64,000 nt of DNA from Alicyclobacillus sp. SO9 (GCF_016406125.1 NZ_CP066339.1:3658001-3722000), one strand, 5' to 3'. Shown: positions 3,333 to 62,242, numbered from the stretch's first letter. A program made the numbers and translations. The notes: generated by a model not told the origin, from the letters alone.

Positions 3333-3353
3333 TTGTAAAGAGAGGTGACACGC

Positions 3354-4046: not shown

Positions 4047-4082
4047 TAAAAAAGGACCGAAGCAATTGTCCCCTTCGGTCCT
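4047..4082 (-). terminator. rho-independent terminator
   Basis: Perfect 10-bp stem AGGACCGAAG (4053-4062) / CTTCGGTCCT (4073-4082) with a 10-base loop. On the minus strand it is followed by a run of six T, 15 bases after the stop of the gene ending at 4097. Confidence 0.9.
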
Positions 4083-4096
4083 ACCGCAAAGTCAAT

Positions 4097-4531: not shown

Positions 4532-4570
4532 AAATTCACCAACATTTCAGGTAATGTATTGACGCCGACC

Positions 4571-4930: not shown

Positions 4931-4970
4931 GTATAATCTACCTCCATTTAAAAAATATGTTACTTCCCAA

Positions 4971-4987
4971 ATACCCTGATGGGTACC
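4971..4987. promoter_or_regulatory. CsoR/CstR-like operator
   Basis: ATACCCTGATGGGTACC contains TACCC-N4-GGGTA, the arrangement typical of CsoR-family (copper or persulfide) operators. It lies 41-57 bases upstream of the DsrE start, where it would block or overlap the promoter; a TTGACA-like element is just upstream on the minus strand. No CsoR/CstR gene is in the window. Confidence 0.55.
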
Positions 4988-5311
4988 TAATTATCATATC
5001 AGGCACTGTCAATAATATCTCCAGCAAGAGGCTTAAAAATCCCTTAACGGCAAGAATTACGGGCATTTTTCAAAGAAACTTCAAAGCAAACTTGTGGGGG
5101 AATTTCCAATTACGACCGAAAAAAGTAGAATAATTATCTATGAAAAGTGATATGATAGAAGTCAATTCGGAGTGTGCATATCACCTCACAACATTGGATT
5201 TCAGTGGTCAATTAATGCTAGAATCTGAAGAGCTTTAGTGAAAGGATTTGACCCAGGATAAAGTCACAGTGCATCAACCATCTGTACTGATCCATGAAAG
5301 GTGATTTCTCA

Positions 5312-6649
5312 ATGCGATATCTGTATAGAGTGTTAATACTTCTGCTGACAACTGCCACAATGGGTACAATCTACATCTTCCAGGGTGGTCAGTTTCGTCA
5401 ACACGGCCTGTCTGGCACAGTCACCTACCCCATGTTTCCGAATGACATTACACTGATTTGGGTAATGACGCTGCCTGTCGCCTTTTGCCTGTGGCTAGGA
5501 TGGGTTTTCTTTCTTCAACACGTCCCTTGGCGCAACGCCAAGATTCCTTCTGAGATGGAAGGTAAGATCGTTATTCGTTATGTCACGCGCGGCATCAATA
5601 AGGAGGCTGTGTCGCTTTCCGTCACTACAGCCTACGAGGTGTTTGAAGCAGCCGGATTTAGTAACAGGCTGTCTATACAAGTTATCAGTGACAGGGATAT
5701 TCCGCTTCCCTCTTACGCGGAAATCGTTCTGGTTCCGAGTGACTTCAAAACACCTGAGAATTCCTTGTATAAGGCACGTGCCTTGTACTACTGTCAACAA
5801 AAGAAGCCTCTGTCTTCTGACGAATGGGTATTGTACCTGGACGAAGAATCAAGATTGACGAAGTCGTCGGTCGAGGGGATTGTCACCTTTGTCAATCAAC
5901 ACCATCAAAAAGCAAAACCGCCTATTGGCCAAGGGCCCATTGTCTACACGGGCGGACGTTGGTTTTGGCGCGGAGCGGACGCCCTGCGGCTTGCCGATGA
6001 CTTAGGCAGGTTTCAACTGCAATATACACTTGGTGTACCCGTATTTGGTGCACATGGGTCGTATTTACTGTTAAGAGGCGATGTTGATAAGGTCTTACCG
6101 TTTGACGTGGGTGAGCCCAATTCGTTGACCGAGGATACCGCGTGGGCTCTTACTGCATGGCAAAACGGGTACCGATTCGGTTGGGTTAACGGATTTATCC
6201 TTGAACAGCCTCCAGGCACTGTCAAAGACTTTCTCAAACAGAGGCAGCGTTGGCTGTCAGGTATGAAGTTGGTTGTGAAATGCCCCAAGATTCAGTGGCG
6301 GTATAAGATACCGATTGCAATCTACACATACCTGTGGCAAGTCTCGTTTCTCTCCATCATGCTGACGGTTCTTATTTTTGTCTGGGGTTTACATCCGCCG
6401 TTGGCAGTGCAGTTAATTACAGATTTTTCTACATCAGTGTATGTCGTTGCTTACTTGATTGGAAATATTGTTACAAGCTACATCACGAAGCGACCACTGA
6501 TGATTTTAACCACCATGCTGTATCCAATTTACGGTGTGCTGGAGTCGACAGCATCCTTGCTTGCATTACGCAAGTTGAAGCATTTTTACGTAGTAAAAAA
6601 ACCGCGGACAGAAAATCCGCTGTCTCCGGTGCCAGACTCCAATCACTAA
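5312..6649 (+). CDS. membrane-bound family 2-type glycosyltransferase
   Basis: A 445-residue processive-type glycosyltransferase. Two N-terminal membrane segments (residues 1-25 and about 45-70) are followed by a cytoplasmic GT-A domain with LDEESRLT (DxD-like), TEDTAWALTAWQNGY (the ED catalytic-base motif) and the acceptor motif QRQRWLSGM (QxxRW). Three to four C-terminal membrane segments follow. The layout resembles egghead/BRE3-like GT2 enzymes. The ATG at 5312 is preferred to 5294 because AAAGGTG lies about eight bases before it. It is a single-gene unit ending in a terminator at 6702. The product (a glycolipid or exopolysaccharide) cannot be deduced from context. Confidence 0.8.
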   Translation: MRYLYRVLILLLTTATMGTIYIFQGGQFRQHGLSGTVTYPMFPNDITLIWVMTLPVAFCLWLGWVFFLQHVPWRNAKIPSEMEGKIVIRYVTRGINKEAVSLSVTTAYEVFEAAGFSNRLSIQVISDRDIPLPSYAEIVLVPSDFKTPENSLYKARALYYCQQKKPLSSDEWVLYLDEESRLTKSSVEGIVTFVNQHHQKAKPPIGQGPIVYTGGRWFWRGADALRLADDLGRFQLQYTLGVPVFGAHGSYLLLRGDVDKVLPFDVGEPNSLTEDTAWALTAWQNGYRFGWVNGFILEQPPGTVKDFLKQRQRWLSGMKLVVKCPKIQWRYKIPIAIYTYLWQVSFLSIMLTVLIFVWGLHPPLAVQLITDFSTSVYVVAYLIGNIVTSYITKRPLMILTTMLYPIYGVLESTASLLALRKLKHFYVVKKPRTENPLSPVPDSNH

Positions 6650-46152: not shown

Positions 46153-47610
46153 TTACGGTTGAAGTTCCCAGATTTTCAGTGCCTTAATGAGTGTCTTCCC
46201 TTTTCCAGAAAACACCTCCAGTCTGTCACTGGTTGGCATGGGATAAATCCGATTCGTCATGACCTTAACACCATGGTTTACGAATATCTCTATAGAACTG
46301 GTGTCGAGGAAGATTTGCAAATGCAGCAACTCGTCGCCACGGTCCACGGTGCAGGTTGACGATGTTGTATCTCCTGCGCCAGAATGGCTTCGATAGAATT
46401 CAAGTTCACTCTTCAAACGGTCAAACTTCAGTACGCTCTCTTCAGAACCATCCTCTGCGCACCGAAACTTCATACCAAAGCAGTCTGCATCTGTTTCGTC
46501 CAGGTCATATTCGATTTCAATTTCCAATTGAATGCCTCGAACAGCTTGCAGTGGATTGCGGCTGCGAGGTGTCAAAAGTACATTGCAGCGTGTCAGCAGT
46601 TCGTTACTCCTCAGTTTCATCATTTCGGCAACAGGCAAAGACAGCAATTGTCCGTTCGGATTAAGCTCGAGCCTGCGCGGCAGGGTAAGGGCTCCTGACC
46701 ATCCATCTTGTTGACTTGGCATAGACGTTCCCCATGTATTCATCCATCCAAAGCCAATCGTCCGCCCACTGTCGTCCTGAAAACTTTGCGCGGCGTAGAA
46801 ATCCTGCCCCTCATCCAATCGAGCTGTGTGCTCTGTTGTGAACTCACCTGTCTCATAATTCAGGTCTCCAACCATATACAGGTTTGAGCAGTTTTCCATT
46901 CCTTCTGGCGACACCAAAAATACACTCTTGCGACCAAATGGCAGGACGTCCGGACATTCCCAGTTGTACCCTTGTACACCATTACTTTGGTTGATTACTG
47001 AGACATAGTCCCAGTCCAATAGATTCTTTGATTGATACAGCACTGCACGGCCATGACCGTTCTTTCCGGTGCCAAGAACCATGTACCAATTGTCGTTATG
47101 CTTCCACACTTTAGGATCCCGAAAGTCTTCCGACGCCTCCGACGGCGGACTTGAAATAATGGGATTGAGAGGATGCTTCCGAAAGGAAACGCCGCCGTCA
47201 TCGCTCGTCGCCATACACTGAACTTCTTTGGGGCTTTTGCTGTCCGAATGTCCGGTATAAAACAGATACAGCTTTCCAGCGTGCACAACGGCGCTTCCCG
47301 AGAAACACCCATTTTCGTCGTAGTCTTCACTTGGTGCCAAAGCGATGGGCAGTTCACTCCAATGGACTAAATCATCGCTAACCACGTGCCCCCAATGCAT
47401 GGGTCCCTGGTATGGACTAAAGGGATGATACTGATAGAACACATGATACTTTCCTTGAAAATACACTAAGCCGTTCGGGTCGTTCATCCAATTTACACTG
47501 GGTGCGACATGATACTTCGGCCGATATCGGTCATTCACTGCACCTGCTGCCTGGTTTTTGTAAGCGTCAGCTCGTTTAATGAGGATTTGGTGTCTGTCAT
47601 GCAAATTCAT
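46153..47610 (-). CDS. GH32 beta-fructosidase (sucrose-6-phosphate hydrolase/levanase type)
   Basis: A 485-residue glycoside hydrolase of family 32 that releases fructose from sucrose, sucrose-6-phosphate or fructans. The catalytic triad is visible: nucleophile Asp in WMNDPNG, transition-state Asp in FRDPKV, acid/base Glu in WECPD. A five-bladed propeller is followed by a C-terminal beta-sandwich (from about residue 345). No signal peptide, so it is cytoplasmic. ATG at 47610 follows GAGGAG; the longer frame to 47709 is ignored. It lies next to the GH130/ABC cluster but is separated from it by the DoxX gene and a terminator. Confidence 0.92.
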   Translation of the reverse strand: MNLHDRHQILIKRADAYKNQAAGAVNDRYRPKYHVAPSVNWMNDPNGLVYFQGKYHVFYQYHPFSPYQGPMHWGHVVSDDLVHWSELPIALAPSEDYDENGCFSGSAVVHAGKLYLFYTGHSDSKSPKEVQCMATSDDGGVSFRKHPLNPIISSPPSEASEDFRDPKVWKHNDNWYMVLGTGKNGHGRAVLYQSKNLLDWDYVSVINQSNGVQGYNWECPDVLPFGRKSVFLVSPEGMENCSNLYMVGDLNYETGEFTTEHTARLDEGQDFYAAQSFQDDSGRTIGFGWMNTWGTSMPSQQDGWSGALTLPRRLELNPNGQLLSLPVAEMMKLRSNELLTRCNVLLTPRSRNPLQAVRGIQLEIEIEYDLDETDADCFGMKFRCAEDGSEESVLKFDRLKSELEFYRSHSGAGDTTSSTCTVDRGDELLHLQIFLDTSSIEIFVNHGVKVMTNRIYPMPTSDRLEVFSGKGKTLIKALKIWELQP

Positions 47611-47922
47611 CGATTGCTCTCCTCGGACTTTTCCAAATAGTTGAAGCGCACCTGAACTAGTCGTAATGGGTGCTGTGTCCCACATGATACTGCTGCTATA
47701 CTGCTCCATTGAATACTCCCCACGGTAAGCAGTGGCCTACTAAAAAATAGGTTGTCCTCAGCATAGGAATTTTCTCTGATTTGGAAGACACTATTCATGG
47801 AGGCAGTCAGCACACTACTCCTTATATCACAGCCATCCATCACACTCCAGTGGAAGTTTGCTCACTCCTCTGCATTCCGATTTACCGGCAATTATCTTAA
47901 GGTTTCTGAGGAGGTCGGACAA

Positions 47923-48498
47923 ATGAGTTACTTTGGTGCCGTCGGGGAAGAACTGAAAAAAAGTTGGTGGAACGCAGTCGTCGTGATTGTCTTTACAATT
48001 TCCAGGATATTTTTCGGGTGGGGATTTTTTCACGCCGGTTGGGAGAAAATGACCAAGGAAAACTGGTTCGGTGACGGCAAGTTTGACGCAGGCGGACTGA
48101 TTCATAAGATGGTTGGAAATATACAGCACTCACACGGCCCAGACCCGCTGCATTTAAACAATCTGTTGGTCTGGTTTGCCAATCACATCTTCATCCCCAT
48201 GGCCGGATTTACAGATTTTCTGGTTGTTCTCTTTGAAATGTTAATTGGTATCTGTGTCTTCTTCGGAATCGGCATTGTCTGGACTATGCTCGTAGCACTG
48301 TTCTTAAACCTGCAGTTCGCGGCGGCCGGTTCTGCAAACAACTTCGGCTATTTGGTGACTGACATCGTTTGGTTCAAATGGCCCAAGTATGCTGGCCTGA
48401 TTGGCTTTGACGGCTATGTGCGTTACAGAAAAGGTAAAAGCCTTCTGGGCGCATCGAGTCTGAACACCCCGCCAAGCGGCAAAGGGACTGCAATGTAA
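47923..48498 (+). CDS. DoxX-like membrane protein
   Basis: A 191-residue DoxX/DoxD-related protein with four helices. FTISRIFFGWGFFHAGWEKM is the family N-terminus with its RxxxGxxFxxxGxxK-type pattern, and GFTDFLVVLFEMLIGICVFFG is the third helix. DoxD-type proteins are linked to thiosulfate:quinone oxidation in acidophilic archaea; bacterial members have varied redox roles. ATG at 47923 follows GAGGAGG; the frame from 47797 lacks such a site. Single gene between two minus-strand units, ending in a strong hairpin. Confidence 0.85.
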   Translation: MSYFGAVGEELKKSWWNAVVVIVFTISRIFFGWGFFHAGWEKMTKENWFGDGKFDAGGLIHKMVGNIQHSHGPDPLHLNNLLVWFANHIFIPMAGFTDFLVVLFEMLIGICVFFGIGIVWTMLVALFLNLQFAAAGSANNFGYLVTDIVWFKWPKYAGLIGFDGYVRYRKGKSLLGASSLNTPPSGKGTAM

Positions 48499-48556
48499 AG
48501 CCGCTGATAGACCGCTGTACGACATACAAAGCAGTGATTGTAACAGATTAAAGGCC

Positions 48557-48592
48557 AGAAGAGTCACCGAATATCACTTCGGTGACTCTTCT
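48557..48592. terminator. strong bidirectional terminator-like hairpin
   Basis: AGAAGAGTCACCGAA (48557-48571) / TTCGGTGACTCTTCT (48578-48592), a perfect 15-bp stem with a six-base loop, between the convergent DoxX and GH130 genes. Confidence 0.8.
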
Positions 48593-48612
48593 CAATATCT
48601 CGTTCCAACACT

Positions 48613-49686
48613 TCACTCTGCCCCAGGCTCCACGTAGGTCAGAGAGTCCAGAATTTCACGGAGGCTGAATTGTGCACATGCCATGGCTGTATCGGCCACG
48701 CCGTAATACAGTTTGACAACGTCATCTTCAACGACAGCACCGCACGAGAAAACAACATTTCCGAAGAAGCCTTCCGTTTCGTAAGGTTCCGTCGGAGTCA
48801 GTATAGGTTCATCGCTGCGCGCGATGACCTTTGCTGGATTATTCACATCCAGAAGCAGGGCGCCCATGCAGTAGCGGTCATTGTGATCGGCACCATGATA
48901 GATCTCCAGCCACCCTTTGTCTGTTTTGATAGGTACAGCCCCAGCTCCCATTCTTCGACTATCCCAGCGTCCCTCTCGCAGACCGATAAGATGCTGATGG
49001 TTCCCCCAATGCTCAAGATTGTCCGACTGTGCAATCCAAACTTCAGGCTGTCCTACGCCGCTTGGGACAGGTCGGTGAAGGGCGAAGAATTTGCCGTTGA
49101 CTCTTTCAGGAAACAACACTACGTCTTTGTTTTCCGGAGGAAAAATCAGGCCGTGTCGCCGGACGGTAACAAAGTCTTCCGTCTCTGCAAGACCCACACC
49201 AACCCCTTCCGTTGACACGACGCTGTAGGTGATATAGAACCTGCCCTCAATTTGGGTAATTCTGGGGTCCTCTACACCGAATGCTTCATATCGGTTATTT
49301 GGAAACAACAGAGGTTCTTTGTCGACGATAAAGTGGCGTCCGTCTGTGCTTCTTGCAACTCGCAAGTACGATACAGAGGTTAAGTAAGACCACTGACTTT
49401 TGTTCTTGTAACGAATAACCCGTGAATCTCTGAAATCCAGCGCTTCATCGTTCAGGTTGAACTCTAGCGTGCGTAAGCCCTGTGCGTCAGGGTCATACCA
49501 CACGGCTGAGACATGCTCATTGTCAGAACTGACAGGCCGTTCCGCTACACGCAGCAGCAGAATGGTTTCGTTACGCAGTTTGGCGGTGCCAGCATTAAAG
49601 GCTCCGATGACCTCACTCTGCTCAAGATGGGGTTCAATGTCTGAGGGTTGTACCAGAGGATTTTCGGCATATCTGACTACTTTCAT
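48613..49686 (-). CDS. GH130 family glycoside phosphorylase-like protein (second of pair)
   Basis: A 357-residue five-bladed beta-propeller of family 130, whose members phosphorolyse beta-mannosides. The catalytic Asp is in FGVEDPRITQ; LHRPVPSGVGQPEVWIA and GADHNDRYCMGALLLD are other conserved blades with phosphate-binding His/Arg. No signal peptide. ATG at 49686 follows GAGGTG by nine bases. The two GH130 genes are only 21 bases apart and differ clearly in sequence, like the tandem beta-1,2-mannan phosphorylases known in Thermoanaerobacter, so they may act on different chain lengths. Linkage specificity is not readable here. Confidence 0.85.
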   Translation of the reverse strand: MKVVRYAENPLVQPSDIEPHLEQSEVIGAFNAGTAKLRNETILLLRVAERPVSSDNEHVSAVWYDPDAQGLRTLEFNLNDEALDFRDSRVIRYKNKSQWSYLTSVSYLRVARSTDGRHFIVDKEPLLFPNNRYEAFGVEDPRITQIEGRFYITYSVVSTEGVGVGLAETEDFVTVRRHGLIFPPENKDVVLFPERVNGKFFALHRPVPSGVGQPEVWIAQSDNLEHWGNHQHLIGLREGRWDSRRMGAGAVPIKTDKGWLEIYHGADHNDRYCMGALLLDVNNPAKVIARSDEPILTPTEPYETEGFFGNVVFSCGAVVEDDVVKLYYGVADTAMACAQFSLREILDSLTYVEPGAE

Positions 49687-49707
49687 GAACAAGATCACCT
49701 CGCAGGA

Positions 49708-50673
49708 TTAGTAATCACTGTAGTTCGCAGTAAAAGTCGCTGCTCCAATTTTAGAGTCAGCCATTCCGTAATAAATGAAAGCTTGTCCATTGAGCTCGAC
49801 CAAGCCCTCTATAAAGACGACATTATTGACTTGCCCCTCACGCTCAGCCCGAGCGTCTGGCGCAAAGAAAGGCTGCTCTGTACGTCCAAGGACTTTTGAC
49901 GGGTCGTCGAGCGAAAGCAAAACCTGTCCTGCTGAGTAAACCAGCGTTCCGGCTCGGTTGTCCAGACTTTTCACGCGTTTAGCTGCATTGTAAATCAGCA
50001 CGATGCCGTCCTTTGTTTTAAAAGGTTGAGGACCGGGTTCTATCAATTCACTGTCGAATGCATCTGGATTCTTTGAGGGTTCCATGACCGGCGTTGGATT
50101 CGGGAACCAATGCAACAAATCTGTGGACTCCGCCATCCAAATTGAAGTATCCCCGAAGAACATAATGTACCTGCCATTGATTGGTTCAGGAAGAATGGAC
50201 CCTGACTTTGACCAGACTTTGTCCGACCCTTCAGACCAATTCGGAAACAGCACACCATGCTTCTCCCAGTGAAACAAGTCTGTCGATGTGGCCAAGCACA
50301 TGCGAGCACTGCTGCCATCAAACCCGGTATATGTCATGTAGTAGACGTCTCCTACCTGACTAATTCGCGGGTCCTCGCATCCGCCGGGTAATTCGTATGC
50401 TTCAGTTGGGACCAGAACAGGCGTACTGTGTCGCGTGAACCGAATTCCGTCCACACTCTCAGCAATGCCAATTCTGGAAGTACCGTTCCAGTCCCCAACA
50501 CCTTCATTATCTTCTGCACGGTAGAGCAAATAGACTTTTCCATCCTTCACTACTGCTGCCGGGTTAAAGACATCCTTTGATTCCCACCCGCTCCCCTGCG
50601 GGACCAAAATCGGGTTTTTGCTGCTCTTTTCAAAGGGTCCGACAGGAAATTTTGCGTTATCAAAAATGTTCAT
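49708..50673 (-). CDS. GH130 family glycoside phosphorylase-like protein (first of pair)
   Basis: A 321-residue GH130 propeller. It has NPILVPQGSGWES at the N-terminus, LYRAEDNEG, the catalytic Asp in GGCEDPRISQ, WSKSGSILPEPING, and a C-terminal YYGMADSKIGAATF. No signal peptide, so it acts in the cytoplasm on imported oligosaccharide, probably giving alpha-mannose-1-phosphate if it is a true mannoside phosphorylase. It is 24 bases after the ROK kinase gene in one long minus-strand operon. Confidence 0.87.
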   Translation of the reverse strand: MNIFDNAKFPVGPFEKSSKNPILVPQGSGWESKDVFNPAAVVKDGKVYLLYRAEDNEGVGDWNGTSRIGIAESVDGIRFTRHSTPVLVPTEAYELPGGCEDPRISQVGDVYYMTYTGFDGSSARMCLATSTDLFHWEKHGVLFPNWSEGSDKVWSKSGSILPEPINGRYIMFFGDTSIWMAESTDLLHWFPNPTPVMEPSKNPDAFDSELIEPGPQPFKTKDGIVLIYNAAKRVKSLDNRAGTLVYSAGQVLLSLDDPSKVLGRTEQPFFAPDARAEREGQVNNVVFIEGLVELNGQAFIYYGMADSKIGAATFTANYSDY

Positions 50674-50697
50674 ATATCATGCTCCAATCTAGTGCAC

Positions 50698-51642
50698 TCA
50701 CACCTGTTGACGATGCAGGCGTTGCTGCTGATTCTCACTTCTGTGTAGTCGGGCCAAAACGGCGCTGCCAATCATACCCGACATACCGCCCAGTTCGGCG
50801 GGCTTGATTTCGACAATCTCCCCTGACGTGGGAAAAGCCCGATTTCGTACAACTTGAGTCAATACGTCAAACATGGGCTTGCCAACTTTCGAAACACCGC
50901 CGCCAATCACGACAACGGACGGATTAAAAATGTGAATGATGTTTACGAGTCCGAGTCCCAAATAGCCAAACGATTCATCCAGAATGCGTTTTGCCAATTC
51001 ATCTCCATTTTTCGCCATATCAGCCACCTCAGCAGCGTCGTGTTCTTCGCCAAACTGTTCCCTGGCAATTTTGGCAATGGACGTTCCCGAGGACAGTGCC
51101 TCCAGACAACCACGGTTCCCGCAAATGCATTGACGACCGTGCGCATCCACAATCATATGTCCGATTTCTCCGGCCGATCCCGTTTTTCCCCGCATCAACG
51201 AGCCATTCACGATGATGCCGGCGCCAATGCCCGTACTCACGGTGACATAGACTAGGTCCGTACTGTTGTTACCCGCACCAAAGTAGTTTTCTCCAATGGC
51301 TGCAGCGTTGGCGTCGTTCTCAAGCACAGTATGCAGTTGTGTTCTTTCTTCAACAATGGCTTTGAGCGGCACATTTTTCCACCCCGGCAGGTTAGGCGGA
51401 GACAAAACAACGCCCGTGTGAGAATCCAATGGTCCTGGAGAACCGATGCCGATACCCCCAATGTGACCACGTGCAACACCCGTTGTTACTTCCTTTACGG
51501 TCTCCACGATTCTCGCTACCACCGCATTCGGGCCTTCGTAGGCATTCGTGTCTCTGCGTACGTACTTTTCTATCCTTCCATCCTCATCAATGAGTCCTGT
51601 GAGGATTTTCGTCCCTCCCAAATCAACGCCCACATGGTACAC
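50698..51642 (-). CDS. ROK-family sugar kinase (glucokinase type)
   Basis: A 314-residue ROK kinase: ATP loop VGVDLGGTKI, IGIGSPGPLD, ENDANAAAIGE with catalytic Asp, GEIGHM, and the zinc motif CICGNRGCLE. It phosphorylates the free sugar (glucose, mannose or similar) released from imported oligosaccharides. GTG at 51642 is preferred because GGGGG is seven bases upstream; ATG at 51672 has none. 49 bases after the ABC permease gene, same operon. Confidence 0.92.
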   Translation of the reverse strand: MYHVGVDLGGTKILTGLIDEDGRIEKYVRRDTNAYEGPNAVVARIVETVKEVTTGVARGHIGGIGIGSPGPLDSHTGVVLSPPNLPGWKNVPLKAIVEERTQLHTVLENDANAAAIGENYFGAGNNSTDLVYVTVSTGIGAGIIVNGSLMRGKTGSAGEIGHMIVDAHGRQCICGNRGCLEALSSGTSIAKIAREQFGEEHDAAEVADMAKNGDELAKRILDESFGYLGLGLVNIIHIFNPSVVVIGGGVSKVGKPMFDVLTQVVRNRAFPTSGEIVEIKPAELGGMSGMIGSAVLARLHRSENQQQRLHRQQV

Positions 51643-51691
51643 ATGAAATCCCCCATTCGTCTGTCGAAACATGCTGCATATAACGCTGAGC

Positions 51692-52531
51692 TTACCCCTT
51701 CGATCCCGTCAGAGTAATGCCTTGTACAAAATACCTCTGCGCGAAGAAGAAGATGATGATAATCGGCAGCATCACCACCACGGACGCAGCCATAATCAGA
51801 TTCCATTGCGTATGAAACGTGCCTTGAAATAAATTCAGTCCAAGTTGCAGTGTGTATTTGCTCTGGTCGTTTAGATAGATGAGCGGTCCTAAAAATGAGT
51901 TCCAGGCTCCTTCAAAGGAAAAGATGGCCACCGCAGTCAAAGCCGGCTTGATGAGAGGAACCACGATTTGCAAAAAAATGCGCAAGGGGCCTGCGCCGTC
52001 AATCCTAGCTGCTTCCTCCAGTTCAATTGGAATCGTCATAAAGAACTGACGCAGTAGGAACACAAAGAATGCATTCCCAAAAAAGGCCGGTACCGTAAGT
52101 GGTAAAAATGTGTTAATCCAGTTCAGTTTGTGAAACAGAATGAACTGCGGAATGAGAAGTACTTCCGGCGGAATCATGAGAGTTGCCAACAAAATGCCAA
52201 ACAGGATTTTTCGACCGGGAAACCGAAATCTGGCAAAGCCATAGGCAACAAAAGCACAGGATGCAACGTTCCCCACCATATTAAGTACGGCAATAATGAT
52301 TGTATTGACGCCAAACCGCCCGAACGAGACTTCTGTCATAGCCTTCACAAAGTTGCCCCACTCAAAATGCTTTGGCAGCCACACAGGCGGAAATACAAAA
52401 ATCTCATCGCTGCTCTTCAGAGCACTCAGAACCAACCAAACGAATGGAACCAAAAAGCTAATGGAAATACCAATTAACAACAGGTATACGATGAATTTTT
52501 GAGTCACTCTTTGCGGACGTCCTGATACCAT
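51692..52531 (-). CDS. sugar ABC transporter permease (MalG type)
   Basis: A 279-residue carbohydrate-uptake-1 permease with six helices and the EAA loop EEAARIDGAGPLRIFLQIVVPLIKPA (core EAAxxDGAG), which contacts the ATPase. Start overlaps the stop of the other permease gene by one base (TAATG), giving translational coupling. Confidence 0.95.
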   Translation of the reverse strand: MVSGRPQRVTQKFIVYLLLIGISISFLVPFVWLVLSALKSSDEIFVFPPVWLPKHFEWGNFVKAMTEVSFGRFGVNTIIIAVLNMVGNVASCAFVAYGFARFRFPGRKILFGILLATLMIPPEVLLIPQFILFHKLNWINTFLPLTVPAFFGNAFFVFLLRQFFMTIPIELEEAARIDGAGPLRIFLQIVVPLIKPALTAVAIFSFEGAWNSFLGPLIYLNDQSKYTLQLGLNLFQGTFHTQWNLIMAASVVVMLPIIIIFFFAQRYFVQGITLTGSKG

Positions 52532-53451
52532 TACTTTTCACTCCCATAATAAACCCATAGGGCTGATGACCGGAACACAAGCATCGTCAGCACGAAAACA
52601 ATAAAGAACAGGACCCATGCCAATGCGGATGCATATCCCATGTGCAAGTTTGAAAAGCCTTGAATATAAACGTTGAGGGCATAAAACAGTCCGGCATTAT
52701 TGACTCCAGCTCCCTGCCCGTAACTCGACCCCATGACATACGCCTGAGTAAAGTAACTGAACGCTCCAATAATCCCCATGACAAGATTGAAAAACAGAAC
52801 GGGAGAAATCATAGGCAGCGTCACATATCTGAACTTTTGCCATGTTGATGCTCCGTCAATGACCACAGCTTCATACAAGGTCTGGGGTACGTCCTGGAGT
52901 CCTGCAAGCATGATGACCATGGCAGTCCCTACACTCCAAATACTCATGACAATAAAAGCTGGAACGGTCCACTGAGGAGTGACAAGCCACTGGGGTTTGG
53001 GAAGCCCAATGAATCCTAAAGCTCTATTCAAAAATCCGTAATCAGGATTCAAAATCCAGTTCCAGAGAACTGCGATTGCAACAGGAGGCAGAACCGCAGG
53101 CAAATAGAACAGTGTTCTAAACAACCTCATTAGCCTTACATTCTGATTCAGGAGAATCGCCAGCACTAAGGCGACAAGCAAATCCAGAGGTACAGATACA
53201 ATTGCATAGTAAAACGTGACTTCAAGAGATTTCCAAAAATCCACACTAAATATCATATGGTGGTAGTTCCCAAAGCCAATGAACTTAGGCGGTCTCAGCA
53301 GGTTATATTTCGTGAAGCTTAAGTAGAGTGAAGCTGCCAACGGACCAAAGACAAAGACAATAAAGCCTATCAACCAGGGACTAATAAACAGATATCCGGT
53401 TAGAGCTTCTTTGCGTTTCATAGGAGACGAAGTACGTGTTTTTTTGTTCAT
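52531..53451 (-). CDS. sugar ABC transporter permease (MalF/UgpA type)
   Basis: A 306-residue permease with six helices; the N-terminus reads GYLFISPWLIGFIVFVFGPL and the EAA loop is YEAVVIDGASTWQKFRYVTLP. It forms the channel with the MalG-type partner. No ATP-binding subunit gene is in the cluster, so a shared MsmK/MsmX-type ATPase encoded elsewhere is expected. Confidence 0.95.
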   Translation of the reverse strand: MNKKTRTSSPMKRKEALTGYLFISPWLIGFIVFVFGPLAASLYLSFTKYNLLRPPKFIGFGNYHHMIFSVDFWKSLEVTFYYAIVSVPLDLLVALVLAILLNQNVRLMRLFRTLFYLPAVLPPVAIAVLWNWILNPDYGFLNRALGFIGLPKPQWLVTPQWTVPAFIVMSIWSVGTAMVIMLAGLQDVPQTLYEAVVIDGASTWQKFRYVTLPMISPVLFFNLVMGIIGAFSYFTQAYVMGSSYGQGAGVNNAGLFYALNVYIQGFSNLHMGYASALAWVLFFIVFVLTMLVFRSSALWVYYGSEK

Positions 53452-53473
53452 CCAGCCAGCCCCCTTTACGGTA

Positions 53474-53510
53474 GTCCTCCTCGGGCTGTGTCATCAGGAC
53501 CAAGGAGGAC
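53474..53510. other. hairpin between binding-protein and permease genes
   Basis: GTCCTCCT (53474-53481) / AGGAGGAC (53503-53510), eight-bp stem, 21-base loop, inside the operon. No T-run follows on the minus strand. Such spacer hairpins often stabilise the upstream binding-protein mRNA so that it is made in excess over the permeases. Confidence 0.45.
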
Positions 53511-53521
53511 CGCCTGTCTTA

Positions 53522-54826
53522 TTATTTCCCCTGAATTGCCTTATCTAGGGCTTTAGCAGCCTTTTGAGCAGCCTTTTGCGGCGTGGTGCTTCCAGAGAGA
53601 ATCGGTTGATAAATGTCATTGCTTAAAATCGTATAGTAGTTAGTGGGAGTCAGCCTTGGTGCACGAGCATACTTCATGGATTGCAAAATGACTGGAATGC
53701 GGTCCTGAGGAGTGTGACCGCCTGGTGCGTCAGGTACAGAAATTTGCGACAAGTTCTTCGCGTACTGCTTCACAGGGGGAACAACTTTCCAGTGATTAAT
53801 GGCCTTCAACAAAGCGGCATAAGCCTGGAACACCACATCTTTGTTCTTTTTCGTATGAGCATTGATAGCTAAATTCGCCAAATACAAGAATGTAGCATTT
53901 TGCGATCCTTTTGGCATCGGTGCTATTTTCGCGGTAAACCCTTGAGAATTATAGTTGCCGTCCGCTGCACCGCCGGCAAACATGGCAACCCGACCCTGCC
54001 GATACAAACTCTCAATATTCACATTTGCCAATTGTGCCAAGGGTGGAATGACCTGGTCCTTGCGCATCTGAGCCAGCAACTGAATCCCCTTTACTGCAGC
54101 GGGTTGACTCAAACTACTCTTTGTCAGCCCCTGATTGTAAAAATGTCCGCCTTGGCTCCATACATACATTTCAACAGGCGGCCATCCATTGCTCTGAAGA
54201 AAGCCGTAAATGTGTTTTTTAGCATTAGTCAGAACCTTCGCATCATGGAAGAACTGGGACCATGTCCACCCCGCCTTTGGCATCGGAAGATTGTGAGCCT
54301 GAAACATTTTCGGATTGTAGTACATCACAACAGGCTGTGCAATCCAAGGCAAAGAGTAGTAGTGGCCGTTGTACTTGGCGTTCAGGAGAGAACTTTTATA
54401 GTAGTTGCTTGGATTCGCTACAATGTATTTGCTCTTATACTTCGCTAAATACGAGTCCAAGTTCAACAGCGTTCCATTTTTCTCATATTTCGGAAGATTG
54501 TCATTATTCACATAAAAAATATCGGTCGCAGTGCCGGCAGCCAGTTCTGTGTTCAGCTTCTGACTGTATTTTGAAGGAACATTGATATCCTTTATCTGAA
54601 ACTGACCTTGGTGCTGCTGATTAATCTTCTTGATGAGCCCCAGCAATTGCTTATTTTCCTGTGCACCGCCCCAGGACATAAACGTGACTGTAACCGGTTT
54701 CTTTGAAGCGCTGCTTGTACCATTGGAATTGTTATTGGCTCCGGCAGACCCGTTTCCACAAGCGGTAACCGCTACCATTGAAGAACTTATCACCACTGCT
54801 AAAGAAGCTTTCGACGCAAACTTCAT
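53522..54826 (-). CDS. sugar ABC transporter substrate-binding lipoprotein
   Basis: A 434-residue extracytoplasmic binding protein of family 1. The signal peptide ends in the lipobox VTAC (Cys about 23), followed by a Gly/Asn/Ser linker. TVTFMSWGGAQENKQLLGLI is the first strand, TATDIFYVNNDNLPKY the hinge region. ATG at 54826 follows GGGAGG. It is probably the first structural gene after the regulator. It binds the oligosaccharide that the two permeases import; identity unknown. Confidence 0.95.
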   Translation of the reverse strand: MKFASKASLAVVISSSMVAVTACGNGSAGANNNSNGTSSASKKPVTVTFMSWGGAQENKQLLGLIKKINQQHQGQFQIKDINVPSKYSQKLNTELAAGTATDIFYVNNDNLPKYEKNGTLLNLDSYLAKYKSKYIVANPSNYYKSSLLNAKYNGHYYSLPWIAQPVVMYYNPKMFQAHNLPMPKAGWTWSQFFHDAKVLTNAKKHIYGFLQSNGWPPVEMYVWSQGGHFYNQGLTKSSLSQPAAVKGIQLLAQMRKDQVIPPLAQLANVNIESLYRQGRVAMFAGGAADGNYNSQGFTAKIAPMPKGSQNATFLYLANLAINAHTKKNKDVVFQAYAALLKAINHWKVVPPVKQYAKNLSQISVPDAPGGHTPQDRIPVILQSMKYARAPRLTPTNYYTILSNDIYQPILSGSTTPQKAAQKAAKALDKAIQGK

Positions 54827-54877
54827 GGTTTGACCTCCCTATTTTGTTTATTTGTCACTCTACCGCAAATGCCGCTT

Positions 54878-56065
54878 CTATCCTTCGATAAACATCCCCC
54901 CCTTGTCGAAAACAGTGTCATGGAAAGCCAGGCTTGCTGCACCCACGGCGGCCGAAAACTGTCCCAATGCGGCAGACTCAATCTGAAGATGATTAACAAA
55001 ATCGCCTAAAACTTGAGATCGTGTCGCACTCTGTACAGCCTTGTAGTAAGTATCGTCCTCGGAAACAAATCTACCGCCGATGACAACCATCTCTGGGTTC
55101 AAAACGTTGCAAATACTTCCAATGGCAAACCCAAGGTACTTTCCAGAACGACTCACAACATCCTTGACAACAAGGTTCTCCGCCTTTGTTTCCTGAAGGA
55201 TCTTGTCAATGTTCATGCGCTCACCGAGTTTCTTCTCCAGTTCCACTTCAATGGCGCCGATAGAAGCCATAGCTTCAAGACATCCCGTCTTTCCACAACG
55301 ACACTCTGGACCGTCAATATCCATCAGGATGTGACCAATTTCGCCAGCTCCATTGCGTGCACCTCGATAAACCTGCCCATCCACAACAAGCCCGCCGCCG
55401 ATACCGACATCAACGACGATATAAATAAGGTTTTGCAGTCCCTTACCCGCACCGTACTGAACTTCTCCATACGCTGCTGCGTTTGCGTCCTTCTCCAAAT
55501 AGCATGGAATGCGAAACTCTCTTTCCATCATGCTTTGAAACGGTACATTTCGCCATGAAGGCATGTTTGGGGGAGAAATTATCGACGAACGGTCTGCACT
55601 AATCGGTCCTGGCGTCGCAACACCGATGCCATAGACGTCTTCATAGGTTTTGCCGAGACTAGACAACATTTCATCAATACGGTGCCTTAACTGAGCGATA
55701 GTGTCGTGCGGACCCGTAGTGGTGTCAAACGAGTCGTTGTATGACTTTACAACTTCCCCCTTGAAATTCATTACAACAATCACGATGTTCTCCACCTGAA
55801 CGTCAATGCCAACAAAGTAAAAAGCGGATGCGTTAACGCCGTATTGCAGCGGTTTTCTACCGCCCTTGGAATCCGCGTATCCGTGATTACTTAAGACACC
55901 TTCCTCTTCGAGTTCATCAATGAGTGTGGATACGGTAGCAAAGGTCAACCCGGTGACACGCGCCACCTCTGGCTTCGTCATGACGTTTTCGCTATAAAAC
56001 GTTTTCAATATGGTTAACTTATTCGCATTTTTCACAGACGAGAGATTCTTCACGGTTTCATTCAC
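54878..56065 (-). CDS. ROK-family transcriptional repressor
   Basis: A 395-residue XylR/NagC-type repressor: N-terminal winged helix-turn-helix (about 12-70: TKPEVARVTGLTFATVSTLIDELEEEGV in part) followed by a ROK sugar-binding domain (GIGVATPGP, EKDANAAAYGE, GEIGHI, zinc motif CRCGKTGCLE). It keeps the catalytic-type Asp, so it may bind a sugar strongly or even retain some kinase activity. Start GTG at 56065 has a weak ribosome binding site. It heads the sugar operon and diverges from the secreted enzyme gene; it likely controls both. Confidence 0.92.
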   Translation of the reverse strand: MNETVKNLSSVKNANKLTILKTFYSENVMTKPEVARVTGLTFATVSTLIDELEEEGVLSNHGYADSKGGRKPLQYGVNASAFYFVGIDVQVENIVIVVMNFKGEVVKSYNDSFDTTTGPHDTIAQLRHRIDEMLSSLGKTYEDVYGIGVATPGPISADRSSIISPPNMPSWRNVPFQSMMEREFRIPCYLEKDANAAAYGEVQYGAGKGLQNLIYIVVDVGIGGGLVVDGQVYRGARNGAGEIGHILMDIDGPECRCGKTGCLEAMASIGAIEVELEKKLGERMNIDKILQETKAENLVVKDVVSRSGKYLGFAIGSICNVLNPEMVVIGGRFVSEDDTYYKAVQSATRSQVLGDFVNHLQIESAALGQFSAAVGAASLAFHDTVFDKGGMFIEG

Positions 56066-56089
56066 GGTTTGTCACATCGCTTACTGTAA

Positions 56090-56149
56090 ATTTAGTCCGA
56101 TTACACATTTAGTGCGATTACAAATTTGGTCCGTTGCACATTTCACCGG
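56090..56149. promoter_or_regulatory. triple 17-bp direct repeat upstream of the ROK repressor
   Basis: ATTTAGTCCGATTACAC (56090-56106), ATTTAGTGCGATTACAA (56107-56123) and ATTTGGTCCGTTGCAC (56124-56139), followed by a partial ATTTCACCGG. Starts 25 bases before the repressor's start codon. Likely operator array for ROK autoregulation. Confidence 0.5.
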
Positions 56150-56306
56150 AGAAATAATGCCTGTGCAACATCCCAGAGTTATGTTGAATCTTATTATAAT
56201 AAATATAATAAATAATGCAAGTATTGATTTTATTAAATTTGATGCTAAAAAAGGAACCCGGCAAAGAGCATACTAGCGCCTCAATCAACGAAATTCATTG
56301 CAATAC

Positions 56307-56333
56307 TTGACTTATAATTTTAAGTATTATAAT
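56307..56333 (+). promoter_or_regulatory. probable promoter of the secreted protein gene
   Basis: TTGACT (56307-56312) and TATAAT (56328-56333; 15-base spacing) or TAATAA at 17-base spacing, about 50 bases before the ATG; very AT-rich. The rest of 56150-56384 shows no gene. Confidence 0.5.
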
Positions 56334-56384
56334 AATAGCCATAATATGAATGCCTAGAAATTATTTCAAGGAGGAATGTAAGTT

Positions 56385-58325
56385 ATGCTGAATGGTAAGC
56401 GCTTTCTGGCGTTTGGAGTGACGTCCATACTGTCCATCTCATTAACGCTCACCCCGACAATCGCCCACGCATCAACGAACGGAAAGACGGTATCGAAAGA
56501 ACTTCGTCAAGCCTCACCGTATGTCAACTTATCACACTTAAATTCCCTTCATACGACGGTACCCTATCCGTCATCGCCGCTCCCTCACCACTCTACGGTC
56601 AACCCAGGAACTCCGCTGGATGTATGGTGGGTGTATGCGAATTTGCAATCAAATGGAAAGTATAAAAGAGTGGGTGGCGGAACCTACAATTCCACAGCAA
56701 ATACGTGGGGTCAAGGTGAGGCCGATATAGACGATATAGCCAGAATTTCAGTGGTGTATTTGCGTCACTACCAAATCTATCATGACCGATTCAGCCTTAC
56801 TATGGCGCGTGCCGCTTTACGTACCATCATGTATATGCAAATCAATTCGGGGCCGCATGCGGGGAACTTTGTGAACTGGATTGAACCCAACGGACAGCCA
56901 AATCTCAATCCTGTACCTTCTGAAGACACCGGAAGCACTTTTGACTGGTGGGCTGCTCGAAGTCTGTGGGCCATGTCTGAGGGCTACCACGTGTTTAGAA
57001 GCGTTGACCCCTCTTTTGCAGATGCTCTTCGCACCAGAATGCAGTTAGCCATTCACAGTCTTGGAACTCAAGTATCATCGAAGTACGGGAAATACTATCT
57101 TATCCACGGCTACAAAATGCCTCAGTGGTTGATATCCGATGGGTCGGATGCCTCTTCAGTTGCGATGCTGGGATTAGTCCAGTACTACAAAGATACTCAC
57201 AATTCCACGGCACGAAAAGTCTTGAATGAATTATCCACGGGAGTCATGAAGTCTCAGATTCGTTCTGCACAGAATCAGTGGCCGTATAACGCTCATATGC
57301 CATGGCAGAAATCAATTGATATGTGGGAAGCGTGGGGAAATCGTCAAATCATGGCACTGGCTGAGGCGGGAAAGATTTTAAGAAACCCTCAGTTTATTCA
57401 ATCCGCAGAAAGAGCAGCCAACTCCCTGTATCCGCACATGATTATTTCTTTCGGACCAGACAATGGGTGGCTGCCGGCTCCTGACAACCAAACTCAGATT
57501 TCCTACGGTGCAGAATCCATGATTGACAGCCTGCTGACGTTGGGCAAGGTGACAGGCAACCCTACTTACGCCAAAGAAGCGGGAATTCTCGGCACATGGT
57601 ACGAAGGGAACAATCGTGCTCACACCGTGATGTATCATCCGCGGACTGGGATCACCTTCGACGGAATCAACAACGATAAGACTGTTAATAAAAATTCTGG
57701 AGCAGAGTCGACGCTCACTGGTTTACTAGCGATGATGAACTTGGAGAGCAATCCAATCGCGCGGACGTACCTGCCCTACAACCGGGTCGTCTCCAAAACA
57801 AAGCCGCTCATCGTTGATGGCAGCTCCGGAACGCCTTCTAATGGGGCTTCCATTGCGTCGGCCCCTAATCAATGGTCTGGAGATTTTCTCTGGAGAACTG
57901 GCAGCTTCGGAGTACTGGTCCCAAAAAGTCAACTAGCCTATACTATAACTGTTGCTCACTCAGGGATGTACCTGATTCAGCTTTCTTACGACAAGCAGCA
58001 GCTTCCCGTCGGTAAACTGGGGGTCCGCGTATATGCCGACCACCGTGACATTGGAACAATCAATCAAGGCGGGGCCGGGGTGCAGGGGGGGTCTCCCACA
58101 CCAGATTACTTGTGGATGCACATGCTTACAAAGCCCGTATTTTTTGCAAAGGGAACACATGTCATACGACTTGCTTACGCGGGGGCCAAGGGTCATGAAG
58201 CAAAAATAGACTCAATCATAGTTCAACCGATGATTGAGCGGGAAACACTGCAAAATTCTACGGGCAATTCTGTTACCATGTCCCATAATATGCTGAACGG
58301 TCGGCTCTCCTTTCATTCATGGTAG
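56385..58325 (+). CDS. large secreted protein, probable (alpha/alpha) glycan-active enzyme plus C-terminal beta domain
   Basis: A 646-residue secreted protein with a clear signal peptide (cleavage near AHA-S, residue 30). Residues about 75-450 have the repeating helix pattern of (alpha/alpha)6 barrels, with GEADIDDIARISVVYLRHY, DTGSTFDWWAARSLWAMSEGY, SDGSDASSVAMLGLVQYY and MWEAWGNRQIMALAEAG. Aromatic and acidic residues cluster at helix starts, as in glycoside hydrolases and lyases of this fold. Residues about 480-620 look like a carbohydrate-binding beta-sandwich (GMYLIQLSYDKQQLPVG, GTHVIRLAY). Good RBS AAGGAGG. It diverges from the ROK/ABC/GH130 operon and is the candidate extracellular depolymerase. 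I do not recognise the family. Confidence 0.65.
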   Translation: MLNGKRFLAFGVTSILSISLTLTPTIAHASTNGKTVSKELRQASPYVNLSHLNSLHTTVPYPSSPLPHHSTVNPGTPLDVWWVYANLQSNGKYKRVGGGTYNSTANTWGQGEADIDDIARISVVYLRHYQIYHDRFSLTMARAALRTIMYMQINSGPHAGNFVNWIEPNGQPNLNPVPSEDTGSTFDWWAARSLWAMSEGYHVFRSVDPSFADALRTRMQLAIHSLGTQVSSKYGKYYLIHGYKMPQWLISDGSDASSVAMLGLVQYYKDTHNSTARKVLNELSTGVMKSQIRSAQNQWPYNAHMPWQKSIDMWEAWGNRQIMALAEAGKILRNPQFIQSAERAANSLYPHMIISFGPDNGWLPAPDNQTQISYGAESMIDSLLTLGKVTGNPTYAKEAGILGTWYEGNNRAHTVMYHPRTGITFDGINNDKTVNKNSGAESTLTGLLAMMNLESNPIARTYLPYNRVVSKTKPLIVDGSSGTPSNGASIASAPNQWSGDFLWRTGSFGVLVPKSQLAYTITVAHSGMYLIQLSYDKQQLPVGKLGVRVYADHRDIGTINQGGAGVQGGSPTPDYLWMHMLTKPVFFAKGTHVIRLAYAGAKGHEAKIDSIIVQPMIERETLQNSTGNSVTMSHNMLNGRLSFHSW

Positions 58326-59414: not shown

Positions 59415-61727
59415 TCATGTCCGCGAAGTCCACTGCACAACCTGCGCCGGAGTGACAGGAATTTCTGTGACCTCCACCTGAAAAGGGGCAAGGGCGTCAG
59501 AGACCGCATTTGCCAGTGCAGCAGGCGCAGCAATCAAAGAACCTTCGCCCATGCCTTTAAACCCGCCTTCTCCATCAGAAGGCGTCTGTATGTGTTCAAT
59601 TTTCATCCGTGGAACCTCAGTACTGACTGGCAACAGGTAGTCCATCAAAGAGGTGTTGGTCAACTGCCCGTCTGCGTCATACCTCAGTTCCTCCAAAAAT
59701 GCCGAGCCAATTCCCTGCGCAACGCCGCCGTGAATCTGCCCTTCAACAATTGTTGGATTTATCAATGTGCCGCAGTCGTTGACAGCGGCATAATCCAATA
59801 CAGTTACAAGCCCTGTTCTTATGTCCACCTCAACAACGGCAACGTGGGTTCCGTTGGAATACGTTGCACTTCGCTGCGGACGGTATCGTGCTACCACTTC
59901 AAGACCGATTGGCATATCATCGGGCAACCTTGAAACGTCATTATAGGCCGTTCTGGCTAAGTCACGAATCGGAATTCCTCGTGATGGTACGCCTGCCACC
60001 TGTGCTTGCCCGGCTTCTAGTTCAACGTCCTCTTCCGCGGCTTCCAACAGATGAGCGGCTAGTTTCACCAAGCGCTTACGCATTTCCTGACCTGCTCGAA
60101 TCGCTGCACCCCCGCCGATTGCACCGGAACGACTGCCTCCGGTACCGCCTCCAAAGGGTGCGCTGTCTGTGTCTCCGTGAAGTACAACCACATCTTTAAC
60201 ATCCACGCCGATTTGATCGGCGATAATTTGCGCCATGGTGGTTTCATGCCCTTGACCGGAAGGTCCGAGGCCCAACGCTGCCGTCACCGTACCGTTTGGT
60301 TCCATACGAATAGAAGCCGATTCATACGGCGTCGATCCCGCTTCCGAAGACACCCCTGCCGTCGGCTCCACAAATACGCACATTCCAATCCCGAGATACC
60401 TTCCCTGGTTTCGAAGCTCAGCTTGATTCTTACGAAATTCCTCGTAATTCACCAGTTTCAGGGCAGCTTCCATGGATTCCGAATATGAACCGGGATCATA
60501 GAGTTCTCCCGTAGGCGTTTCGTAAGGAAAGTCTTCCTGCTGGATCAAATTTACACGCCTGACATCAGCCGGGTCCATTTTCAGACGCCGAGCTACTGCG
60601 TCCACGACGGCTTCGTGAACCCAGGCACCAACCGGTCCGCCTACGCCTCGATAAGCTCCAACGGGGGTTTTATTGGAGAAAACACAGTCAATTGTAATAG
60701 ATACGTGAGGGACCTTATAGGGACCTGTGAGCATGTCTGTCGCCCATCCTGCTTCACCCACAGCTCCTGGAAAACCTCGGAACGGGTAAGCGCCTGTGTT
60801 ACCAATAACCCTGTCAACAATGGCAATAATGCGGCCGTCATTCTCATAAGCGACTTGTACCTCGTGAATGTTGTCACGGGCGTGCGCGTCACTTTGCATG
60901 CCCTCAGTTCTGTCGCTAATCCACTTGACGGGGCGTTTCAATTTTTGTGACGCGATGGCCGTCACAAAGTACTCTGGATAAAGCATTGCCTTAATTCCAA
61001 ATGCGCCGCCAACCTCAGGCACCACCACCCGCACCTGGTTTTCTGCAAGTCCGAGCAGTTGAGTCAACTGCGTCCGCAGTTCATGTGGAGACTGGTGTGA
61101 GCAATAGAACGTCAGTCGTCCAGACAACGGGTCCGTCATGGCTGCACAAGCCCTTGTTTCCATGGCCACACCCGTTTGACGATTGGTTGTCAGGGTTTGC
61201 GAGAGATGGTTCGGCGCACTGCGAAAAGCTTCCTGAAACCCATCGGTTTCGTGCTCCTTGTGAAAAAATGTGTTGGGCCTGTGGGAAAAAACCCGCCGCG
61301 GCTCTTCGTTGAGCGCCTTGCGGCTGTCGATAACAGGAGCAAGCGGCTGATACTCTATATGCACAAGGTCAGCTGCATCTTCAGCCACGTAGCGGTTCTC
61401 GGCTATGACTGCAACAACAGGCTCGCCGACATAACGTACTTCTCCGTCCGCCAAAACCGGCTGACCCACATCATAAGACTTTGTGTATAAATTTACCGGA
61501 CAATCCTTGGCAGTCAGGACAGCATGTACCCCTGACAGTTTCTGTGCCTGAGATAGATCAATAGAAGAAATTTTAGCGGCAGCTCTGTTGGAGCGAACAA
61601 ATACCATCTCAAGCATACCCTGCACAGCAATGTCATCAAGATAATGACCCTGACCTGACAAAAGGCGGGCATCTTCCAGTCGCGTGACGCGGGCTCCGGT
61701 AAACTGAGGCTTCATCGGTGCACCCAT
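59415..61727 (-). CDS. molybdenum hydroxylase large (Mo-MCD) subunit, CoxL-like
   Basis: A 770-residue catalytic subunit of the xanthine dehydrogenase/CO dehydrogenase family. It has GKxGxY-type GQGHYLDDI, VPEVGGAFGIKAMLYPE (GGxFGxK), SGQGHETTM, AVNDCGTLINPTIVEGQIHGG, and KGMGEGSLIAAPAALANA with the catalytic Glu. The active-site loop is AYRGVGGPVG. True form I CO dehydrogenase has AYxCSFR and form II AYRGAGR, so the substrate is probably not CO but an unidentified aldehyde, purine or N-heterocycle. ATG at 61727 overlaps the previous gene's stop by one base; the longer frame to 61931 is rejected. Confidence 0.9.
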   Translation of the reverse strand: MGAPMKPQFTGARVTRLEDARLLSGQGHYLDDIAVQGMLEMVFVRSNRAAAKISSIDLSQAQKLSGVHAVLTAKDCPVNLYTKSYDVGQPVLADGEVRYVGEPVVAVIAENRYVAEDAADLVHIEYQPLAPVIDSRKALNEEPRRVFSHRPNTFFHKEHETDGFQEAFRSAPNHLSQTLTTNRQTGVAMETRACAAMTDPLSGRLTFYCSHQSPHELRTQLTQLLGLAENQVRVVVPEVGGAFGIKAMLYPEYFVTAIASQKLKRPVKWISDRTEGMQSDAHARDNIHEVQVAYENDGRIIAIVDRVIGNTGAYPFRGFPGAVGEAGWATDMLTGPYKVPHVSITIDCVFSNKTPVGAYRGVGGPVGAWVHEAVVDAVARRLKMDPADVRRVNLIQQEDFPYETPTGELYDPGSYSESMEAALKLVNYEEFRKNQAELRNQGRYLGIGMCVFVEPTAGVSSEAGSTPYESASIRMEPNGTVTAALGLGPSGQGHETTMAQIIADQIGVDVKDVVVLHGDTDSAPFGGGTGGSRSGAIGGGAAIRAGQEMRKRLVKLAAHLLEAAEEDVELEAGQAQVAGVPSRGIPIRDLARTAYNDVSRLPDDMPIGLEVVARYRPQRSATYSNGTHVAVVEVDIRTGLVTVLDYAAVNDCGTLINPTIVEGQIHGGVAQGIGSAFLEELRYDADGQLTNTSLMDYLLPVSTEVPRMKIEHIQTPSDGEGGFKGMGEGSLIAAPAALANAVSDALAPFQVEVTEIPVTPAQVVQWTSRT

Positions 61728-62242
61728 TACTGTCCCTCCCTTTGTGTCGTGGACGACACCCTTCGATAGGCTTCGGCAGCTTCCAAAACCGCGTCGACGA
61801 TAAACTGATAGCCCGTACAGCGACAGATGTTCCCAGACAGAGCCACACGCACTTCCTGCTCGGTTGGGTTGGGATTCATTTTTAATAAAGCCTCTGCAGT
61901 CAGCACCATCGCAGGCGTGCAAAACCCGCATTGTAAAGCGTGGTGTTTTTCAAACGCGGCCTGGAGTGGACTTAACCCCTCAACGGGAGTGGCAGCCTCA
62001 ATCGTTCTTATCTCACTGCCCTGTGCTGAAACGGCGAACATGAGACAGCTGCGCTGTGGTTGTCCGTTAACCAGCACAGTACAAGCGCCGCACACACCCT
62101 GTTCACAGCCCACATGTGTTCCTGTCAGTCCCAATTCATGGCGCAGCACATCCGATAACAGCCATCGCGGCTCCACGTCAACCGTACGCTGTTCGTCATT
62201 AATACTGAGTTGAATCCGGGTCAGATTTTGCTGTGTTGTCAT
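61727..62242 (-). CDS. molybdenum hydroxylase small [2Fe-2S] subunit, CoxS-like
   Basis: A 171-residue protein with two [2Fe-2S] clusters: plant-ferredoxin type (HVGCEQGVCGACTVLVNG...RSC, around residues 41-66) and the C-terminal CGFCTPAM ... GNICRCTGY. It passes electrons from the Mo centre to the FAD subunit. It ends one base into the large subunit start (TAATG) and starts three bases after the FAD-subunit stop, so all three subunits are translationally coupled. Confidence 0.96.
   Translation of the reverse strand: MTTQQNLTRIQLSINDEQRTVDVEPRWLLSDVLRHELGLTGTHVGCEQGVCGACTVLVNGQPQRSCLMFAVSAQGSEIRTIEAATPVEGLSPLQAAFEKHHALQCGFCTPAMVLTAEALLKMNPNPTEQEVRVALSGNICRCTGYQFIVDAVLEAAEAYRRVSSTTQREGQ

Follow-up and report, generated by a model that had tools for sequence, protein, structure and literature searches.

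A predicted beta-1,2-mannoside utilisation locus of Alicyclobacillus sp. SO9 with an exported (alpha/alpha)-barrel protein as putative mannan-cleaving enzyme

An operon for sugar import and breakdown that faces a gene for a large secreted protein of no named family raises the question of which polymer is cut outside the cell, and by what. We addressed this question in a 64,000-nucleotide stretch of Alicyclobacillus sp. SO9 (NZ_CP066339.1:3658001-3722000; hereafter the window, with positions counted from its first letter), part of a 5.29 Mb genome. A reading made from the DNA sequence only had proposed a glycan-use system composed of a minus-strand operon and a divergent gene for the secreted protein, and translations together with Pfam and NCBIfam models place every gene it named at the expected position. 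The computed gene content, protein families, conserved linkage, fold and residue signatures point to a beta-1,2-mannoside utilisation locus whose exported barrel acts as an endo-acting beta-1,2-mannan-cleaving enzyme, a scheme that we consider probable as a whole. Within it, the secreted protein most likely represents an undescribed family of beta-1,2-mannan-cleaving enzymes, probably endo-acting. The system comprises the following features:

48613-49698, minus strand: GH130a, predicted beta-1,2-mannobiose/oligomannan phosphorylase, Lin0857 type
49708-50673, minus strand: GH130b, predicted cytoplasmic beta-1,2-mannosidase (inverting hydrolase), BT3780 type
50698-51672, minus strand: ROK-family sugar kinase (PF00480, 255 bits), ROK glucokinase-like, under the NCBIfam cut-off
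51692-52531, minus strand: permease of the ATP-binding cassette (ABC) sugar importer, MalG/UgpE type (PF00528; UgpE/MalG-like)
52531-53451, minus strand: permease of the ABC sugar importer, MalF/UgpA type (PF00528; UgpA/MalF-like)
53522-54826, minus strand: solute-binding lipoprotein of the importer (PF01547, 85 bits; lipobox VTAC in the translation)
54878-56065, minus strand: ROK-family transcriptional repressor with N-terminal helix-turn-helix and ROK domains (PF13412 and PF00480; NagC-like)
56088-56143, no strand: 17-bp direct repeats, candidate operator, 5' of the ROK repressor gene
56385-58325, plus strand: secreted (alpha/alpha)-barrel protein of the YPO2471/7TEM family, predicted beta-1,2-mannan-cleaving enzyme
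56385-56471, plus strand: its signal peptide, a hydrophobic N-terminus ending in AHA before S
56517-57779, plus strand: its catalytic (alpha/alpha) barrel, residues 45-465, from the AlphaFold2 model and conservation
57783-58319, plus strand: its C-terminal beta-sandwich, residues 467-645, CBM6/35/36-like

The two GH130 genes, correctly described earlier as dissimilar (31% identity over ~258 residues), appear to differ also in chemistry. GH130a scores 570.7 bits against NCBIfam NF050092, above the equivalog cut-off of 550, aligns over its full length with Lin0857 of Listeria innocua (5B0P, 402 bits), and carries at the aligned positions the lysine of beta-1,2 specificity as well as the R, R and H that bind phosphate. 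In the GH130 tree it groups with the Bacillaceae and Lin0857, and we predict this orthologue-grade match to be a beta-1,2-mannobiose phosphorylase. The top models and structures for GH130b are instead BT3780-like beta-1,2-mannosidases. Hydrolases of the BT3780 type lack the three basic phosphate-binding residues and have carboxylates instead, while a lysine, K199, marks the beta-1,2 specificity common to these GH130 enzymes (PMC4599007). GH130b displays the same signature: the specificity lysine is kept, the phosphate-binding positions read gap/L/N as in BT3780, and carboxylates occupy the BT3780 base positions (FGD and LIE versus WGE and LTE, with one Glu replaced by Asp). Because the phosphate-binding residues are missing, we predict that GH130b releases mannose by hydrolysis and is not a phosphorylase. 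The earlier proposal of two GH130 phosphorylases hence stands for GH130a, and was rejected for GH130b on these residues and its likeness to BT3780. Free mannose would in turn be the substrate of the ROK kinase, explaining the presence of a kinase in the operon; its role as a mannokinase is read from the pathway alone. Genes of the phosphohexomutase family (PMM/PGM) and for mannose-6-phosphate isomerase (PMI) are encoded outside the operon. Elsewhere in the genome lies a third, very divergent GH130-like gene (344-residue frame, 26-27 bits; G000:C1:3999536-3999880, L003).

DUF1861 proteins, homologous to MPT-1, -2 and -4 of Leishmania at 1e-50, are found near GH130 and the secreted protein in the Bacillaceae-type loci L051 (split), L053, L055, L057, L063 and L064, and likewise in L164/L195. 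The MPT proteins are the GT108 enzymes of mannogen, a beta-1,2-mannan (PMC8950772) with the polymer linkage considered here. Unlike these Bacillaceae relatives, the window's own genome yielded no DUF1861 protein in a search run without a positive control. The sequence-only reading had held that no polymer was fixed; the GH130 clades, the specificity lysine and the GT108/DUF1861 neighbours in Bacillaceae nevertheless argue for beta-1,2-mannan, or a glycan bearing beta-1,2-mannosides.

Next, the secreted protein itself. As proposed earlier, it is secreted and of no known family: a signal peptide is present, no Pfam or NCBIfam model matches, and its sole sequence relative with a solved structure is YPO2471 of Yersinia pestis (7TEM), a putative exported protein (phmmer 6.5e-36). 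The suggested (alpha/alpha) architecture was borne out by an AlphaFold2 model built on a 48-sequence alignment (pLDDT, the predicted local distance difference test, 88.7), with the barrel spanning residues 45-465 and a beta-sandwich residues 467-645. The barrel superimposes on 7TEM with a Z of 43.9 and a root-mean-square deviation of 2.4 over 388 residues, placing it in the YPO2471/7TEM family, although the YPO2471 chain (~427 residues) has no counterpart to the C-terminal domain. This domain, folded alone, reached a pLDDT of 90.4 and resembles a CBM6 (Z 15.7) and the CBM35 of a GH26 mannanase (Z 15.0), both of them carbohydrate-binding modules (CBMs). A search of a viral fold library gave no useful match. 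Across exported members and cytoplasmic paralogues H51, D116, D117, R120, R192, Q371, N410, D426, N437 and E441 are invariant, and N164 is kept in 52 of 54 sequences.

The next fold matches after 7TEM are mannan-related GH76 endo-alpha-1,6-mannanases (Z up to 28), the nearest characterised ones, and AGE epimerases (Z 25-27), and each brings an alternative to the fore. The main one is that the secreted enzyme cuts another bond, for example in an alpha-mannan backbone or a heteropolymer, and releases oligosaccharides that bear beta-1,2-mannosides for the two GH130 enzymes. Such a scenario would suit the GH76 fold and the fact that BT3780 operates in a yeast alpha-mannan locus (PMC4599007). Both GH76 and the secreted protein possess an Asp-Asp pair (D116-D117 in the latter). 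However, identity to GH76 is only ~10%, the GH76 Pfam model does not match the secreted protein and gives weak hits in just 2 of 48 aligned relatives (best E 0.0046), a search of the genome for GH92 returned none, and the operons of relatives often hold mannoside enzymes of the GH130/GT108 type only. We therefore regard cleavage of another bond as rather unlikely. The second alternative, that the protein is exo-acting, a transglycosylase or an AGE-fold sugar epimerase instead of an endo-hydrolase, draws on the barrel being common to all these activities. It appears improbable to us, since AGE-fold epimerases are usually cytoplasmic, and export fits cleavage of a polymer, as do the CBM6/35-like domain and the additional modules of relatives: an N-terminal hydrophobic segment for export is present in each of the 48 aligned exported relatives, nine of which also carry CBM9 and three CBM6.

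Congruent with a beta-1,2-mannan-cleaving role, members of the family accompany GH130 widely. A profile scan covering each species by one genome gave 415 matches (the same scan with the single sequence of the secreted protein found nothing, and an alignment query was needed), and the linkage counts below refer to the best 80 of the 415, which stem from Bacillota, Chloroflexota, Dormibacterota, Bacteroidota/Ignavibacteria, KSB1, WOR-3 and others. GH130 occurs in the examined flank of 53 of these 80 loci, rising to 32/38 where both flanks reach 8 kb, and both sugar permeases are present in 53/80. L027 and L029 preserve the full order of ROK repressor, binding protein, two permeases, ROK kinase, GH130b and secreted protein, and their GH130 enzymes group with the GH130b of the window; L032 retains the part from kinase through GH130 to secreted protein, and L030 that of GH130 and secreted protein. 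The link between operon and secreted gene thus extends to other genomes, and as the order recurs in other families, the arrangement is not due to chance. The linked GH130 proteins carry the beta-1,2 lysine in 62 cases and Arg in two, against lysine in 13 and Arg only in seven of 20 control GH130 loci (Fisher 5e-5, a value that is indicative only, as the controls were hand-picked from the Bacillota survey and the sequences are related). None of the seven Arg-only loci has a member of the secreted-protein family, and a profile search addressing detection bias to lysine-type GH130 added that type only, leaving the result unchanged. Among 299 Bacillota genomes, GH130 is present in 62/63 with a superfamily member versus 46/236 without (p 4e-33, with no correction for relatedness of the genomes). 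In L197 two GH130 genes and a phosphomannomutase-family gene follow the exported protein in that order, an arrangement that formation of mannose-1-phosphate would predict. A plasmid collection returned two distant matches only, one labelled 'hypothetical protein'.

Certain relatives depart from the common form. In L100 (12332-14668), a 779-residue protein encoded between two GH130 genes unites a GT4 domain with a match to the secreted-protein family (75 bits), by its sequence a probable glycosyltransferase-barrel fusion. The L194 protein at 2157-5720 (1187 residues) has GH130 confined to its C-terminus (888-1172), the rest being without Pfam match, and open frames of ~1200 residues with GH130 recur across many Bacillota genomes, often near a barrel paralogue. 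The secreted-protein frame of L032 (9172-10374) stops 5' of the conserved NxNxGAEST motif and enters an SDR-like gene in another frame, possibly through deletion, pseudogene formation or assembly error.

The family also includes cytoplasmic paralogues of ~400 residues that lack an export signal (L042:6648-12225, with L038, L044 and L045 alike). They neighbour genes for mannose-1-phosphate guanylyltransferase-like and GT4 proteins and for mannose-6-phosphate isomerase or phosphomannomutase, in some cases with a BT3780-like GH130, and a cluster of the L042 type possibly serves intracellular synthesis or turnover of a beta-mannan. A tentative extension, which we hold possible but doubtful, is that the barrel family supplies the missing beta-1,2-mannan depolymerase, with an exported arm that would scavenge beta-1,2-mannan and a cytoplasmic arm that would make and recycle an intracellular beta-1,2-mannan reserve in bacteria. 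The cytoplasmic arm, with its GDP-mannose pyrophosphorylase-like, GT4, DUF1861/GT108-like and GH130 proteins, would then be, equally tentatively, a bacterial counterpart of Leishmania mannogen. The search of the window's own genome for a cytoplasmic paralogue gave only a 19.5-bit match.

Several observations weigh against the scheme of beta-1,2-mannan cleavage and uptake. The operon has no importer ATPase, a shared MsmX-type ATPase being usual for such importers in Bacillota. Some exported homologues (for example L028, L031, L054, L059 and L060) are without GH130 in the examined flank, and the secreted protein itself deviates at a few near-invariant positions, such as E315 where 52/54 sequences have H. 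At 282.6 bits GH130b falls short of the BT3780 equivalog cut-off of 550, and we place it by sequence in the BT3780 clade with the matching residue signature, yet do not file it as a BT3780 orthologue. Calibration of the lysine test drew on few characterised enzymes, and GH130 also includes a beta-1,3-mannoside phosphorylase (PMC8950772). Endo-action is suggested by export, the CBM-like domain and the importer. Finally, no reported activity was found for any exported family member in the open-access literature, nor a functional report on YPO2471/7TEM.

A further gene was considered as part of the system:

46153-47709: GH32, near the operon, with a plus-strand DoxX-like gene between

The sequence-only reading rightly called it nearby, and its adjacency would allow that the locus, jointly with GH32, serves a different polymer such as a fructan or unknown exopolysaccharide, as that reading left open. 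The GH32 protein nonetheless lacks an evident signal peptide, its matches are intracellular sucrose-6-phosphate hydrolases, the intervening gene separates it from the operon, L027 and L029 hold no GH32, and the GH130 clades indicate mannose. We rejected GH32 as a component, and consider a fructan-type locus highly improbable. Past the secreted-protein gene, at 59415-62242 of the window, genes for a molybdenum hydroxylase were recognised by eye (large and iron-sulfur subunits, overlapping frames).

The overall scheme envisaged earlier, of external cutting, ABC import, intracellular GH130 action and ROK kinase acting on the free sugar, is supported, with the enzyme activities being predicted. 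In our preferred account, in which substrate, endo-action, kinase specificity, regulation and catalytic residues are inferred, the CBM-like domain would hold the exported barrel on the polymer. Oligosaccharides would arise as the barrel cuts external beta-1,2-mannan, or beta-1,2-mannan side chains carried by a glycan from a fungus or bacterium. Endo-hydrolysis is the probable mode of cutting, and the D116/D117 pair and/or E441, all of them invariant, are the putative catalytic carboxylates. The oligosaccharides would enter through the binding lipoprotein and two permeases, which make up a CUT1-type ABC sugar importer. Inside, GH130a would release mannose-1-phosphate by phosphorolysis and GH130b would hydrolyse beta-1,2-mannosides to mannose, which the ROK kinase would convert to mannose-6-phosphate, and the phosphomannomutase and mannose-6-phosphate isomerase encoded elsewhere would lead the products to glycolysis.

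The ROK repressor would sense the sugar and control both transcripts. The operon is densely packed (spacing from a 1-bp overlap up to ~70 bp), and 319 bp with a 17-bp direct repeat inside separate it from the secreted-protein gene. At least three copies of the repeat (ATTTAGTCCGATTACAC...), at 17-bp spacing, lie at 56088-56143, and the two-copy pattern occurs only here in the whole genome, making the repeats a candidate operator as judged from the DNA. A promoter and terminator scan ranked the real sequence no better than shuffles.

How did the locus arise? An exported copy is confined to the window's genome among 41 genomes from the same taxonomic family. Another five of these show remote matches only, those examined being of the cytoplasmic type, and it is in Dormibacterota that the nearest exported homologues occur (44-46%). 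This lone copy, its homologues and the separate groupings of GH130a and GH130b suggest that the locus was assembled by horizontal transfer, as it looks from trees without a formal test.

Of the known systems, the Teth514_1788/1789 cluster of Thermoanaerobacter sp. X-514 likewise pairs an ABC importer with GH130 beta-1,2-mannoside phosphorylases for imported 1,2-beta-oligomannan, and further contains GH5, GT4, mannose-1-phosphate guanylyltransferase and unnamed hypothetical proteins (PMC4264767). The pathway logic is hence already known, while no description of the exported enzyme family was found in the open-access literature; in contrast to the two phosphorylases of that cluster, the window holds a phosphorylase with a hydrolase, a ROK kinase and the exported barrel. 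BT3780 acts outside the cytoplasm (PMC4599007), whereas GH130b has no signal peptide and is encoded beside a phosphorylase and a kinase. The beta-1,2-mannan linkage occurs in the cell walls of Candida, in reserves of Leishmania and in certain bacterial O-antigens (PMC4264767). Enzymes of two kinds, phosphorylases and mannosidases, are known to act on beta-1,2-mannosides, but no report of a beta-1,2-mannan depolymerising enzyme, endo-beta-1,2-mannanases included, was found in the open-access literature. With one unnamed family, a solved structure and association with GH130 in many phyla, this missing depolymerisation step becomes directly testable. If true, our reading would assign a function to PDB entry 7TEM and to a family that no Pfam model covers.

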